DNA of 55,504 nt from the IMG/VR virus record IMGVR_UViG_3300027749_000136, positions 1-55,504 of that record; one strand, given 5' to 3'. The notes beneath the pieces were generated by a model that saw nothing but the letters and a program-made list of their open reading frames with translations, ran no database searches and was not told the origin of the DNA. The stretch's first letter is position 1; the number at the start of each line of letters is the position of its first letter. Below are positions 42,910 through 55,504 of the stretch, in pieces. Source of the stretch: a virus. A program made the translations under genes and the position numbers.

Positions 42910-42912
42910 TTG

Positions 42913-43350
42913 ATGTCATGGTATTATCAAGAAACTTTAATTGAAACCCTTCCAGAAGAATGTATAGGTTTCGTCTATTGTATCACTAATAACATCACTG
43001 GTCGCAAATATATAGGCAAGAAACTAGCAAAATTCTCCAAAACTACTTACAAAACAGTAAAACAAAAAAACGGCATAAAGAAGAAAAAGAAGATTCGTTC
43101 TAAAATTGATTCTGACTGGCGTGAATACTATGGCTCAAGCGACCATCTAACAAAAGATATAGAAACTCTAGGCGCAGAGAATTTCAAAAGAGAAATACTT
43201 TACTACTGCACATCAAAGGCTGAATGCTCATACATAGAGGCAAGAGAACAATTTACAAGACGTGTTCTCGAAAGTGACGACTACTACAACGGACAGATAT
43301 CTGTTCGTGTACACGGAAGTCACATTAAAGGCAAACAACTAAACGGTTAA
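42913..43350 (+). CDS. GIY-YIG nuclease domain protein
   Basis: A 145-residue protein from ATG 42913 (a TTG one codon earlier is also possible; neither has a clear ribosome binding site, so translation is probably coupled to the preceding gene). GFVYCITNNITGRKYIGKKL is a GIY-YIG core with the arginine-equivalent region around WREYYGSSDHL and a likely catalytic glutamate in SYIEARE. Length fits a single nuclease domain with a basic insert (KQKNGIKKKKKIRSK). It may be a homing-type or repair nuclease. A candidate structured RNA begins directly after its stop. Confidence 0.78.
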   Translation: MSWYYQETLIETLPEECIGFVYCITNNITGRKYIGKKLAKFSKTTYKTVKQKNGIKKKKKIRSKIDSDWREYYGSSDHLTKDIETLGAENFKREILYYCTSKAECSYIEAREQFTRRVLESDDYYNGQISVRVHGSHIKGKQLNG

Positions 43351-43700
43351 AGCTCGCACAGGCTAATTTCGTGTGCCGAACAGAAGAAACCTGGACCTAG
43401 TGTCGCAGGGATCCGTAGACTCTTGCCGTTAAGAGCACTCAATCACTATCCTTAACAGGACGAGGATCGCAAAGCTGCCGCGGTTTGATTGTTTAAAGGA
43501 AATACAGGCAAAAAGAGGGAGAAATACCCACGTTTGCAAGCATGTTAGCGTATGTTTGTAGACCGCCGTCATATAAAGACACAGCTCGAGGTACCGGATG
43601 ACCGCCTCTGTAATGCTGTAACGCTAAGTGATAAAGGTGCAACTCAGATAATGTTGATTTTATTTCTTTGCCCGCAAGGGCAAAGTGTGACTGAACAATC
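43351..43700 (+). ncRNA. Candidate structured noncoding RNA, family unknown
   Basis: No gene fits here, and the base composition is visibly richer in G and C than the flanks. I can pair: GCACA/TGTGC (43356/43372), CCTG-GAC/GTC-CAGG (43390-43409), GATCC/GGATC (43410/43464) enclosing CTCTT/AAGAG and TCCT/AGGA, an 8-bp stem CAAGCATG/TATGTTTG (43537-43558), ACAGC/GCTGT (43581/43615) enclosing GAGG/CCTC, and CTTTGCCC-GCAA-GGGCAAAG (43666-43685). This many nested helices in one gap suggests a structured RNA. It matches no class I recognise; tmRNA, RNase P and group I core motifs were sought and not found. Strand is assumed from neighbouring genes. Confidence 0.5.
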
Positions 43701-43809
43701 TAGATAATATTTAAATGCTTCGCATTAATCATTATTAAGTAAAAAAAAATAGTTCGAGCGCAAGCGAAGAACAGATGTACGCAGTACATCATTAACTAAA
43801 TATAATACT
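43701..43809. other. AT-rich spacer with small hairpins
   Basis: After the large structured block the gap continues with an A9 run and three compact inverted repeats: AATGC-TTC-GCATT, GTTCG-AGCGCAAGC-GAAGAAC, and GATGTAC-GCA-GTACATC. CTAAATATA (43796-43804) at the end could be a late promoter. No coding frame is supported. Confidence 0.5.
43796..43804 (+). promoter_or_regulatory. Late-promoter-like CTAAATATA next to a start codon
   Basis: CTAAATATA ends five bases before ATG 43810, with no Shine-Dalgarno between. If used as a late promoter the transcript would be leaderless or nearly so. The close spacing lowers confidence. Confidence 0.35.
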
Positions 43810-44859
43810 ATGAAAGTTTATCAAATTATTAAGGAAGACTACGACTTTAGAGTAGGTGATAGCCCTGCTTCAGCAGCAACTGATGTTGTAAAAAGTGCTG
43901 GATCTGCTGTAAAAGATGTTGCTGGATCTGCAGGTACTAGTTTCTCTAACTTTTACAAAGAACTAGGAATAGATACAAAAACTTTAGTAGTAGGTAGTGT
44001 TGCCGCTGGTATAACTGTAGCTGGCCTAAGTAAAATTGCTTCTAAGTATTCTGAGAAGTATGCAACATCGATAGAAAAAAACGGCAAGATAATGAAGTTG
44101 TATGGCGCATGGGGTAAAGTGTTTACCGTTATTGGCTTAGCAATTGCAATATCACAACTATATGCCGAACTAGCAGTAGTAGAAGCTATGTATGTACAAG
44201 GTAAATTGCCTGGAGACGACGGCGGTGCTGAAATGCTACAACAGCACCGCGAGTTTGCATTTGGAGTATTTCAAGTTCAAATATTAACTCCGCTGATAGT
44301 AAAATTACTTAGCCGAGTCATTGGAGCAACTACTTTAATAAAATGGTTTATTCGAGCACTAGGTGGAGTTAGTGTTTTTGCTAGTATGGGTGCAAGCATT
44401 GTGGCAATTGCTGCATCTGAAGCATTTACACGTTGGCTACAAGCATGGTTAGGGTCTGGTCCAGGAAAAGACTTTATTGCAAAATATATATTTGACGTTA
44501 TACGTTTTACAGGTAAACCATTAGAATCGTTCTGGAGCGATATTATGGGATTCTATAAAGGTGCTGATGTTAAGAAATACGGCAGCGAAGAAGGCGCCAA
44601 AAAAGCCAGTGCTGAAAGAGAAAAGAAGAAACAAGATAATGATACTGGTGTAGGAAGCCTGTCAGGTAAAACTGCAAAAACTGGACAAGTTAACGGGATT
44701 GTAGTGACTGATGCACAAGGATACTTGTTGCCGGCATTAAAACTAATGGCTGATCAAGAACTACAGCAAGCTCGTCGTGATGCAATTAAAGCAGGTACAC
44801 CGGACCCATTAGCTAAATTTCCTATACGTCCCGGACAAAAGCTACCTGAAATTATTTAA
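43810..44859 (+). CDS. Multi-pass membrane or pore-like protein, function unknown
   Basis: A 349-residue protein I do not recognise. Hydrophobic helices are LVVGSVAAGITVAGL (about 58-72), VFTVIGLAIAISQLYAEL (about 98-115) and a long stretch from VQILTPLIVKLLSRVIG to FASMGASIVAIAASEAF (about 155-212). The N-terminal segment has alanine- and serine-rich amphipathic repeats (SAGSAVKDVAGSAG) and the C-terminal third is charged and soluble. It has no cleaved signal. An internal virion protein ejected into the host membrane, or a holin-like pore, are both possible; neither is shown. Its stop overlaps that of the opposing gp51-like frame. Confidence 0.65.
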   Translation: MKVYQIIKEDYDFRVGDSPASAATDVVKSAGSAVKDVAGSAGTSFSNFYKELGIDTKTLVVGSVAAGITVAGLSKIASKYSEKYATSIEKNGKIMKLYGAWGKVFTVIGLAIAISQLYAELAVVEAMYVQGKLPGDDGGAEMLQQHREFAFGVFQVQILTPLIVKLLSRVIGATTLIKWFIRALGGVSVFASMGASIVAIAASEAFTRWLQAWLGSGPGKDFIAKYIFDVIRFTGKPLESFWSDIMGFYKGADVKKYGSEEGAKKASAEREKKKQDNDTGVGSLSGKTAKTGQVNGIVVTDAQGYLLPALKLMADQELQQARRDAIKAGTPDPLAKFPIRPGQKLPEII

Positions 44860-45966: not shown

Positions 45967-48900
45967 ATGGCAGAAGAAATTGATTATAAAAAATTAGCCG
46001 AAGCGCAGGCAATAGCTAATGCCAAATATCTAAAACAGGGGGGTAGTGGCGGGGGCGGCAAAGGTACCGGAATGGGTGCTATTGACGTAGGTGTTGACAC
46101 GTTTAAAAAAGCAATTGATCCTTTTGGATCTGCTATAGGTGTGGCGGGTAAAGGAGTCTCAGCACTATCTGATGCACTCAATGAAGGCAAAGATGCATGG
46201 CGCGATCTAAGTAAATCTGGCGCAGGTTTTAATAACGACATTATAGGTATGACCGTTGCCGCAGCCGGCTCACGTTTACCATTACGAGAATTTGCAGGAG
46301 TTATAAAAGACAACACAGACATACTAGGACAACTAGGTGGAAGTGTAACTAGAGGTGCAGAATCTTTTGCTAAGATGAGCAAAGGTTTCTTTGAAAGCGG
46401 AGCCACTGACAGTTTAAAACAATTAGGCTATACAAATAAAGATCTAAATGAAGTATTGGCTTTACAAGCAGTTACACTTCGCGGCAAGTTTAAAGACGAT
46501 CAGCAACGTGATGCAGTAGCATATGAAAGTGCTACTAAGCTAGCAACTGAAATGGACTTGATGGCCAAACTAACTGGCAAGAGTCGTGAAGCTCAAATGG
46601 AGCAGATGAAAAAGAATCAAATGGACATGCAGTTTGAAGCTGCCATTAGGTTAAAAACTGCTGGAATGAGTGCAGAAGAGGCTGCTAAGTTTGAAGCTAA
46701 TGCTAGGATGCAGTTAAAAGATGCACAGCTACGCGGCTCAGGTGATATGTTTAAAGAAGTATTTGCCACAGGGCAGATAATGAGCAAAGAAGCGGCAATG
46801 CAAGCAGCCGTTAATCAAGAACAAGCTGAAGCTACAATGAAGCAAGCTAGGGCTAGTGCAATTGGTGATGAGAACGCTGCTAATGCTGCTAACAGAGAAG
46901 CACAACGAGCAGCGGTAGCCGATGCAAATAATACTACTAAATTAGGTATGGTAGCATTAGGTGCTGCTGGCGGTGCCGCAGGTAAAGCACTTACTGACTC
47001 TATGGGTGCTCAAATAACTTATACTAAGAGTTTAGAAGCTACTGCTGTTGCTAATGGATACGATTTAAAAACAAAAGAAGGCCTTGCTAAAGCTCAAGAA
47101 AAAATGGAAGAAGAGGCTAAGAAAGCCCAATCAGGACAAGATAAAGATGGCAAGCAAGTAGATGGAGTGACAAAAGCTGCAGTGACTCTTGAAAATACTG
47201 TTGATAAAGTACGTGCAGGATTAACAGCTGGATTATTAGAACCATTAAACAAAGAAGTTGGCCCTAAGCTAGGAGAATTTGCAAAAAATGTAGATGCAAT
47301 GAATAAAAACTTTGGCGGCAGTGGTAAAGATACTAGTAGAGCTATTGAAGATTCAACTAAGAAAGGTTTTGCAGGAGGAGTTAGCGATAAAACTACTAAC
47401 AGGTATGAACGAGAACCTGGTGCAGGTGGTCCATTAGGTATTGCAGAAAGTGTAGGTGGCTTAGCCGGAGGTGGAACTAGATTATTAACTGGTGGGATTG
47501 ATAAAGTAAATCAATACATGGAGCCTAAAAAACGCCAAGGCGGTTCTATGGATATGACTGGCGGTATGTTTGAAAATTGGGGCAAGGGCGAAATGGTTGA
47601 GTTGCATGGCATGGAAGGTGTTATGCGTCCACAAGATATTGAAAAGATTGTTGAAACTTCACTGGGTGGAGCTAAAAAATCTTTAAGTTCTGCTAGTGCA
47701 GGTGATATTAGCAAATCTATAAGCAATATGCCGATGCCTAAATTTGAAATGCCTAAATTTGAAATGCCTAAGATGGAAATGCCTAAGATGCCTAAGATGG
47801 AAATGCCTAAGATGGAAATGCCTAAGATGGAAATGCCTAAGATGGAAATGCCTAATCTAACTGCTGGTGGTGGAATTGGCGGAGGCATGGGGGGTCTTGA
47901 TTTAAGCAGCATAACTAAAAATCTCAATACATCTTTTAGTAGTTTAACATCTGGTATTAAATTACCAGACATGAAAGAATTATCAATGCCTTTTAGTTCT
48001 GCATTTAAAGATTTTAATCTAAGTTTCAGTTCAATAACCAAAGACGGTGCAGAAAAGATTGCAAAGACTCCTATCCCTAAAGAACCGTTTGACGAGTTTG
48101 GCAGCAACTTTGACGAAGTAGTTGCTAAGATGGCTGCTGATGTATCCGATGCAATGCCATTAGATGCAATGGATCAAAATGCCGCTGCTTTAGAGTATGC
48201 ATCAAAACGTAGAGCAGAACTTGAACAGCTAATGTCAGATGGCCAAGCAAGGACTGGTAAAGAATGGGATGAAATTTTTGACGAAGCAGAGCAACTAGAT
48301 GGTCAAATTGACAAGTTAGTCACAAAGCAGATAGAAGCAATGACCAACTACAGCGATGGTTGGGATGAATCTGGCAACATGATGGATAAAATCAATAGTG
48401 ATATTGTAGAAGCTGTTGGCGGATCTAAATCTAAAATTGCACAAGATAAAATTGATGCTGCGATTGAAGAAAAGAAAAAAGCAAATGAAACTATAGCGTT
48501 TATGCTTAATAACATTGCAGACGAGGACTGGGACGATGAAGCTCAAGCTGCATGGGACGAGGCAATTGATCGTAGAGATGCTGCAAAAGAAAAGTTAGAT
48601 AAAGTTATAGAAGAGTCAATTGGCGATCTAGCAGACGGATTTGATGACTTTGGCGACGGGTGGAATGATTCTGTTGACAAAATCACAGCTGACATAGCTG
48701 ACTCTTTACCAGTAGATACTGAGTTTGGGGATCTTGACGGTGCAATAGCTAAACAAGCATCTATGCAAGATAATGAGTTTGGTGATCTTGACGGAGCAAT
48801 AGCAAGAAACAAACAAGATGATGAAGCTAAATCAGAACTTGCAAGAGAAAGCAAACGCGGTGCAATGAAAGATGTAGTAGCCGGGTCTAGCCCAACTGCT

Positions 48901-49272
48901 ACACAGAGTCGTGGCATTACTATGGACAGTTTTACACTGGGTCCAAACGGTATGCCTATTGCTAAACCAAAATCTACTGCGGCAGCAACTCCTGATAAGC
49001 CTGCAGAAAAACAAGCAAGTCCCGGAAAAAAGATTAATCCAGAAACTGGAGAAGAGTACACTCCAGTAGGAGATGCTAAACCTGGAGATAAATCCGGAGA
49101 CAAGAAAGGTGCTGCTGGCGGAGGAGAAAAAGCTGCTACTCTAGACGACGTTGTTAAGAGCTTAAATGCGTTAAATACTAAGATGGGTCAACTGATTTCT
49201 GTTAATGAAGATGGCCATAAGGCTTCAGCCAAAGCTGCTAAAAGCGGTAGTACTAATTTATACGCGAGATAA
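45967..49272 (+). CDS. Tail tape measure protein
   Basis: A 1101-residue, largely helical protein. LKQLGYTNKDLNEVLALQAV and DLMAKLTGKSREAQMEQMKK (about 150-225) match tape measure proteins of environmental T4-like phages. At about residues 540-560 GEMVELHGMEGVMRPQDIEK resembles the G-E-x-V/A-V-x-P motif near the C-terminal part of many tape measures. Residues about 590-630 are pentapeptide repeats MPK(F/M)E, and near 917-950 EFGDLDGAIA occurs twice. At 0.15 nm per helical residue it would span up to about 165 nm, but the repeats and the disordered C-terminus make this an upper bound. It replaces T4 gp29 (590 residues). Confidence 0.85.
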   Translation: MAEEIDYKKLAEAQAIANAKYLKQGGSGGGGKGTGMGAIDVGVDTFKKAIDPFGSAIGVAGKGVSALSDALNEGKDAWRDLSKSGAGFNNDIIGMTVAAAGSRLPLREFAGVIKDNTDILGQLGGSVTRGAESFAKMSKGFFESGATDSLKQLGYTNKDLNEVLALQAVTLRGKFKDDQQRDAVAYESATKLATEMDLMAKLTGKSREAQMEQMKKNQMDMQFEAAIRLKTAGMSAEEAAKFEANARMQLKDAQLRGSGDMFKEVFATGQIMSKEAAMQAAVNQEQAEATMKQARASAIGDENAANAANREAQRAAVADANNTTKLGMVALGAAGGAAGKALTDSMGAQITYTKSLEATAVANGYDLKTKEGLAKAQEKMEEEAKKAQSGQDKDGKQVDGVTKAAVTLENTVDKVRAGLTAGLLEPLNKEVGPKLGEFAKNVDAMNKNFGGSGKDTSRAIEDSTKKGFAGGVSDKTTNRYEREPGAGGPLGIAESVGGLAGGGTRLLTGGIDKVNQYMEPKKRQGGSMDMTGGMFENWGKGEMVELHGMEGVMRPQDIEKIVETSLGGAKKSLSSASAGDISKSISNMPMPKFEMPKFEMPKMEMPKMPKMEMPKMEMPKMEMPKMEMPNLTAGGGIGGGMGGLDLSSITKNLNTSFSSLTSGIKLPDMKELSMPFSSAFKDFNLSFSSITKDGAEKIAKTPIPKEPFDEFGSNFDEVVAKMAADVSDAMPLDAMDQNAAALEYASKRRAELEQLMSDGQARTGKEWDEIFDEAEQLDGQIDKLVTKQIEAMTNYSDGWDESGNMMDKINSDIVEAVGGSKSKIAQDKIDAAIEEKKKANETIAFMLNNIADEDWDDEAQAAWDEAIDRRDAAKEKLDKVIEESIGDLADGFDDFGDGWNDSVDKITADIADSLPVDTEFGDLDGAIAKQASMQDNEFGDLDGAIARNKQDDEAKSELARESKRGAMKDVVAGSSPTATQSRGITMDSFTLGPNGMPIAKPKSTAAATPDKPAEKQASPGKKINPETGEEYTPVGDAKPGDKSGDKKGAAGGGEKAATLDDVVKSLNALNTKMGQLISVNEDGHKASAKAAKSGSTNLYAR
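47734..47853 (+). repeat. 15-bp tandem coding repeats (MPKFE/MPKME) in tape measure gene
   Basis: Units of ATGCCTAAGATGGAA and variants with AAATTT repeat about eight times, with one shortened unit. They encode methionine-proline-lysine pentapeptides. Near-identical DNA copies favour slippage, so copy number is likely to vary among relatives. Confidence 0.85.
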
Positions 49273-55248: not shown

Positions 55249-55335
55249 TATTGTATGACTTACACAGGGTAAGTTTTATGCGGAAATCCAACCGCGTACA
55301 GCCTAGAACGCTGTCTTTCTTAAGGAGAAAACAAA

Positions 55336-55504
55336 ATGGGACGTCCTTTAAACAAAAAATATTTTGGTAACCGTAATATTGGTTCCGCAAGCACAACAGC
55401 TGATGATAAGATCGGTGGTGAAGGCATAGCAAGTATCAGTGTAGCAACAGCTGGTAGCTTTACTGTTAACAACACTTACAAAAACTTTCCACTATTAAAT
55501 ATTG
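55336..55504 (+). CDS. Start of a putative virion protein (3' truncated by window)
   Basis: The first 56 codons are visible from ATG 55336, preceded by TTAAGGAGAAAACAAA. The sequence MGRPLNKKYFGNRNIGS then GEGIASISVATAGSF looks like the start of a small beta-rich structural protein seen after gp23 in environmental T4-like phages. Late promoter and strong ribosome binding site support a virion role. The rest of the gene lies outside the window. Confidence 0.7.
   Translation, partial: MGRPLNKKYFGNRNIGSASTTADDKIGGEGIASISVATAGSFTVNNTYKNFPLLNI

Follow-up and report, generated by a model that had tools for sequence, protein, structure and literature searches.

Genomic setting of the noncoding block

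The window, that is, the whole stretch of 55,504 nucleotides analysed here (IMG/VR record IMGVR_UViG_3300027749_000136), belongs to a T4-like phage encoding a gp55-like sigma factor, gp47, gp46, a SegE-like GIY-YIG endonuclease, a baseplate hub and a portal protein. The gp55, gp47, gp46 and GIY-YIG genes share one strand and, on that strand, the GIY-YIG gene is followed by a block devoid of genes (43351–43700): its left edge is the stop of the GIY-YIG ORF, the next ORF starts at 43810, and the ORFs inside it, according to the ORF list, are at most 51 aa long. The G+C content of the block is 0.466 compared with 0.364 for the whole window, a richness equalled by 2.8% of 350-base stretches. A preliminary description, made from the sequence alone, had singled out this block as gene-free and G+C-rich, as the above figures bear out; the RNA element proved longer, reaching from ~43339 to 43735 and possibly to 43790 (roughly 400–450 bases). 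In none of ~123 relative loci, among the matches listed, is a consistent ORF kept across the RNA block; 17 scattered ORFs of at least 80 aa overlap it in these loci, for the most part in antisense. Elsewhere in the window, the large ORF 45967–49272, possibly encoding the tail tape-measure protein, contains an in-frame tandem repeat of ~15-base units coding for an MPKME-like peptide (47733–47855).

Conservation as a single unit

More than 100 of the retrieved phage contigs aligned with positions 43341–43720, used as an nhmmer query, over ~375 nt, essentially the full length. The RNA occupies the same genomic spot, with one copy per genome, in well over 100 freshwater T4-like phages, and was present in a single copy in each of eight large contigs (108–347 kb). 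IMG/VR was searched with two patterns, one representing a motif of the 5' half and the other a motif of the 3' half, the locus counts given here being those among the matches listed, and covariance models were built for the 5' half (R1) and the 3' half (R2). Scans with the 3' motif provided 93 newly retrieved loci, among the matches listed, on 92 viral contigs and one contig of a metagenome-assembled genome (MAG); all 93 match R2, of which the motif itself is a part, and 86 also match R1, and therefore the two halves constitute one RNA. Several of the seven loci without an R1 match start within or beside the 3' half, and lack the 5' half because the contig end cuts it off. No match to the block was detected in cultured phages by blastn; in host genomes, the first pattern returned no contigs and the second a single 4.5-kb contig from a Bacteroidetes MAG, probably a misbinned phage.

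A catalogued motif covers the 5' half

A cmscan search against Rfam revealed a full-length match to RF01718, Polynucleobacter-1, at 43351–43494 (model positions 1–141; 90.9 bits, cutoff 37), and ten relatives of the window RNA score 79–120 bits against the same model. RF01718, a candidate RNA with the Rfam type ‘Gene; sRNA’, stops about halfway along the conserved RNA and covers its 5' half only, no Rfam 15 family matching the 3' half (~43500–43735). The preliminary description had assigned the RNA to an unknown class, naming an Rfam hit to a known family as a refutation, and this is what was found for the 5' half; its statement that the block matches no RNA family fails for the first 144 bases and stands for the 3' half. 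In the main text of the original report, Polynucleobacter-1 is one table row, with Burkholderiales and fresh water/estuary as its source and the entry ‘y y ?’ (Weinberg et al., 2010; PMC2864571). The freshwater/estuary origin in that row and the match to the whole model, far above the threshold, link the window RNA to RF01718; beyond the model, the window RNA extends upstream of 43351 by the P1 strand and downstream by the whole 3' core (with two more pseudoknots), the module with two identical boxes described below and the hairpins at the end. Thus, the 5' half of the window RNA belongs to RF01718, and the 3' half, the twin-box module and the sister classes are undescribed within Rfam 15 and the open-access papers searched.

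Other matches in the block were rejected. A sub-threshold match to cow-rumen-2 (RF02947) at 43532–43636 (19.7 bits, E 0.34) was dismissed as chance and did not recur, with E values allowed up to 1, in ten further loci of class I and nine of classes II and III (the classes are defined below), and a sub-threshold CRISPR-DR57 match on the minus strand is accounted for by the GCAA-capped hairpin. The window RNA resembles GOLLD and ROOL in being large, pseudoknotted and phage-encoded (PMC12286853) but is shorter than both, and GOLLD and ROOL are often found near tRNA islands (PMC12286853), whereas the window has no tRNA genes; neither family matches the window at the gathering score or the block at E up to 1. 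A second Rfam RNA resides in the same phage, namely, freshwater-2 (RF02980; plus strand, 55258–55338, 73.9 bits, cutoff 49.9), a cis-regulatory candidate directly 5' of an ORF that begins at 55335 and has an AAGGAGA ribosome-binding site.

Structure and covariation

The single-sequence fold energy of the block is unremarkable (z-score −1.13), so that minimum free energy was dropped as evidence of structure and the structure was tested with relatives. In alignments of 73 and 68 diverse sequences, 88 named pairs were scored along with shuffled and slid controls, and 67 of these, over both halves, show changes on both sides. The two-sided changes affect 31 of 40 pairs in the 5' half (score 0.352 vs 0.149 in the shuffled and no more than 0.089 in the slid control) and 36 of 48 in the 3' half (0.419 vs 0.187 and 0.106, respectively, the latter again as a maximum), well above the controls, which strongly supports the multi-helix structured RNA originally proposed, for which such a covariation check had been suggested.

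The resulting structure (Table 1) includes at least four pseudoknots (43342–346/426–430, 351–353/362–364, 545–550/622–627 and 568–572/598–602). The P1 strand engaged in the first of these lies upstream of the start of the Rfam model and is overlapped by the last bases of the GIY-YIG gene. The RF01718 consensus helices are backed by covariation here, the hairpin 43420–43435 being a weaker exception. Because the tested pairs were picked partly from the same sequences, the percentages paired are inflated, both for the strongest helices of the 5' domain (440–445/486–491, 99.5% of cells; 465–470/480–485, 100%; 10 of 12 pairs two-sided) and for the weaker pairings (hairpin 420–424/431–435, 57.7%; pseudoknot 43342–346/426–430, 68.8%; arm helix 637–640/693–696, 60.6%). 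The first of these helices, the main 5'-domain stem, encloses the near-invariant CACUAUCCUU.ACAGGACGA, whereas in the 3' core the invariant columns GGUA..GG..ACCGCC lie inside the 43581–43619 stem; the two middle pairs of the GUCAU/AUGAC pseudoknot display 26 and 22 two-sided changes. Among the individual stems read from the single sequence, the nested ACAGC/GCTGT (43581–585/615–619) and GAGG/CCTC (588–591/605–608) and the 8-bp GCAA-capped hairpin were recovered, whereas GATCC/GGATC (43410–414/464–468) was rejected: of its five pairs, three are possible in no more than 6, 23 and 39 of the 73 relatives, and 43465–470 pairs instead with 480–485.

Table 1. Features of the RNA and its surroundings (window coordinates; ‘two-sided’ denotes pairs with changes on both sides; percentages of paired cells are inflated, as explained in the text).
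Feature	Positions	Strand	Evidence
Gene for the SegE-like GIY-YIG endonuclease, 5' of the RNA	42910–43350	+	PF19835, E 2.3e-33; phrog_447
5' domain, holding the whole RF01718 match 43351–43494	43339–43498	+	Rfam, 90.9 bits; 31/40 pairs two-sided
P1 strand, pseudoknot with 43426–43430 in the loop of hairpin 43420–43435	43342–43346	+	5/5 pairs two-sided; 69% of cells paired
Pseudoknotted hairpin, 351–353 with 362–364 and 356–360 with 372–376	43351–43376	+	90% and 98% paired; 6/8 pairs two-sided
Hairpin CUGGAC/GUC(G)CAG	43391–43408	+	6/6 pairs two-sided
Main 5'-domain stem 440–445/486–491 around hairpins 449–460 and 465–485	43440–43491	+	Covariation
3' core, outside every Rfam family	43510–43635	+	Aligned together with the 5' half in >100 contigs; covariation
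13-bp hairpin, loop UUAGCG (545–550) pairing with CGCUAA (622–627)	43532–43563	+	Pseudoknot 93.9% paired; 6/6 two-sided
Pseudoknot GUCAU (568–572) with AUGAC (598–602), loop of hairpin 588–608	43568–43602	+	98.2% paired
ACAGC/GCUGU stem around GAGG/CCUC	43581–43619	+	91.5% and 98.5% paired
Arm helix 637–640/693–696 linking the two repeat units, tentative	43637–43696	+	4/4 two-sided; only 60.6% paired
Twin box 1, AGATAAT, flanks CUC_G	43646–43652	+	Same 7-mer as box 2
GCAA-capped hairpin of 8 bp separating the twin boxes	43666–43685	+	Sequence; 78% paired, alignment shifts within the helix
Twin box 2, AGATAAT, flanks UCU_A	43702–43708	+	Same 7-mer as box 1
UUC-capped hairpin AAUGC-UUC-GCAUU, possible 3' end	43714–43726	+	Sequence and relatives; missing in some relatives
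Two downstream hairpins, 43752–43772 and 43774–43790	43752–43790	+	Sequence and relatives

Neighbouring genes and the downstream end

Among the matches listed, the upstream gene lies on the strand of the RNA in 108 of 108 loci; wherever both the GIY-YIG gene and the RNA were identified (146 loci), the gene precedes the RNA on a common strand. This constant order would be expected if the RNA worked with the adjacent nuclease, either as a guide or as a structured partner, as would the comparatively high identity of the GIY-YIG proteins of class II phages (~74–83% vs ~40–61% for gp46), although these loci were picked by GIY-YIG similarity. The family is, however, common in cultured T4-like phages (497 records), six cultured-phage GIY-YIG loci lack the RNA according to models R1 and R2, and in several loci other genes intervene between the nuclease gene and the RNA. 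The gene may be a mere syntenic neighbour; we consider such a partnership unlikely.

The gene downstream of the RNA is not conserved. Among the matches listed, 71 of 123 loci have a next ORF co-directional with the RNA (median distance of 112 nt after the R2 match) and the remaining 52 (42%) a convergent one; the downstream genes are non-homologous, with the window's downstream protein detected in 12 loci only. Were the RNA a cis-regulatory leader or riboswitch-like element, it would be expected to precede homologous co-directional genes consistently; with a convergent next gene in 42% of the phages, the RNA is probably no leader, although it might be one in the 71 co-directional loci. The co-directional loci and one possible reading of the ‘y y ?’ table entry (Weinberg et al., 2010; PMC2864571) speak for such an element, but terminator-like hairpins stand between the RNA and the next gene and the Rfam type is ‘Gene; sRNA’, making this explanation quite improbable. 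Of the two downstream hairpins, the first (43752–43772), ~45 nt past the second box, has a conserved GAGC-GNNA-GCGA head, possibly forming tandem G-A pairs, which is located at most 170 nt away in 171 of 217 loci (79%, among the matches listed) as against 70 of 11012 background stretches, and the second (43774–43790) resembles an intrinsic terminator in many relatives.

Twin boxes with a free sequence and a kept identity

A further property of the 3' module surfaced in the covariation analysis as positions 56 nt apart that change to the same base. These belong to two 7-nt boxes that are identical to each other in 79 of 79 aligned RNAs, comprising nine sequence types, and, in the larger covariance-model alignment, in 143 of 144 distinct RNAs with eleven 7-mer types (among the matches listed), the sole exception (L309) differing at one base. 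Fitch parsimony on the RNA-core tree counts 29 switches of the 7-mer. By contrast, the flanks are nearly fixed and unlike each other (CUC/G at box 1, UCU/A at box 2). Positions −5, +8 and +9 around the boxes also match above chance, in a table for which the search pattern imposed 7-mer identity and left these three positions free; in distant relatives (L160, L048 and L199), the last box position may differ or the flanks change. We infer that selection maintains the identity of the boxes rather than one particular box sequence, and a common partner would be the natural reading of such identity without sequence conservation. No complement of the boxes was found within the RNA, within 1 kb of it or, beyond sporadic single matches, in 12 phage contigs.

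Copies that are identical, free in sequence and bounded by fixed flanks are also characteristic of recombinase overlap regions. The boxes could accordingly be a DNA element, that is, crossover or copying sites requiring matched copies, and some box switches indeed resemble replaced cassettes (L192 vs L196). Against this, no excised single-box form was found among the relatives, the spacing between the boxes varies continuously among loci, and it is implausible that gene conversion would be confined to 7 nt flanked by fixed differences; we regard a DNA element as very doubtful. In one relative (L221:8434–8567), the 3' strand of the loop pseudoknot is missing along with box 1 and the hairpin, owing to either a natural deletion or an assembly error, and here, too, the junction does not coincide with the boxes. 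A mutual copying process may also underlie the identity of the boxes.

Multiple pseudoknots, the GIY-YIG neighbour and two identical short sites near one end could, alternatively, betray a self-splicing or otherwise catalytic RNA, for instance, an unusual group I-like intron with the boxes as reaction sites. Yet, no intron or ribozyme family of Rfam matches the RNA, and the genes on either side look intact rather than like halves of one gene, so that neither mark of a group I or II intron (a match to an Rfam intron family and a host gene split in two) was found; nor is there an internal guide complementary to the boxes. A catalytic role thus appears highly improbable. A further candidate, in which the boxes represent a codon plus a stop, like the takeoff and landing codons of T4 gene 60, was ruled out by AGACGAA, AGCAGAA and similar types, as well as by the fact that no ORF is conserved.

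Related RNAs with different cores

The twin boxes are shared by RNAs beyond the class of the window RNA (class I). In class II, represented by ~20 loci among the matches listed (for example, L185:5415–5783, L167, L163, L154, L170 and L190), the 3' core and the twin boxes are kept and the 5' domain is different; the class II alignment, scored without a control, also displays two-sided pair changes. Class III comprises eight loci, among the matches listed, at the same genomic site (for example, L150:5420–5833, L176:3532–3959, L202:5453–5873 and L188:5674–6088), in which a different, structured-looking core of ~340 nt precedes the shared twin-box module, most of these loci carrying ACATGAA twice. 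The part common to classes III and I would be the twin-box module. None of nine sampled loci (class II, class III and more distant) matched an Rfam family with an E value of 1 or less.

Proposed role and significance

We propose that the element is an independently folding, trans-acting noncoding RNA spanning ~43339–43735, perhaps to 43790, of which RF01718 is the 5' half and in which the twin boxes pair with a common partner, a proposal to which we assign an about even chance. The RNA would be transcribed together with, or just after, the GIY-YIG gene, and the transcript would end at the downstream hairpins near 43714–43790, the 3' end not being fixed. It might then act in trans as a rigid scaffold or a ribonucleoprotein, with the 3' module offering two identical 7-nt boxes, both of which would base-pair with the same partner nucleic acid. 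Because no complementary partner was found, the pairing step is one that we infer and, because no complement was found in phages, the partner is possibly encoded by the host.

A more far-reaching conjecture, to which we give a low probability, is that of a swappable RNA system, in which three structured cores (I, II and III) are combined with one 3' module whose variable but always identical boxes would be programmable points of contact with one partner nucleic acid; if true, this would make it a sequence-addressed phage RNA of a new kind. A catalogued RNA motif, then, makes up one half of a phage RNA that is large, deeply conserved and accompanied by two sister classes. The full-length extent of this RNA gives a construct for structure determination, and the twin-box rule, whereby identity is kept and the sequence is free, is a precise clue to function that had been hidden by a partial Rfam model.
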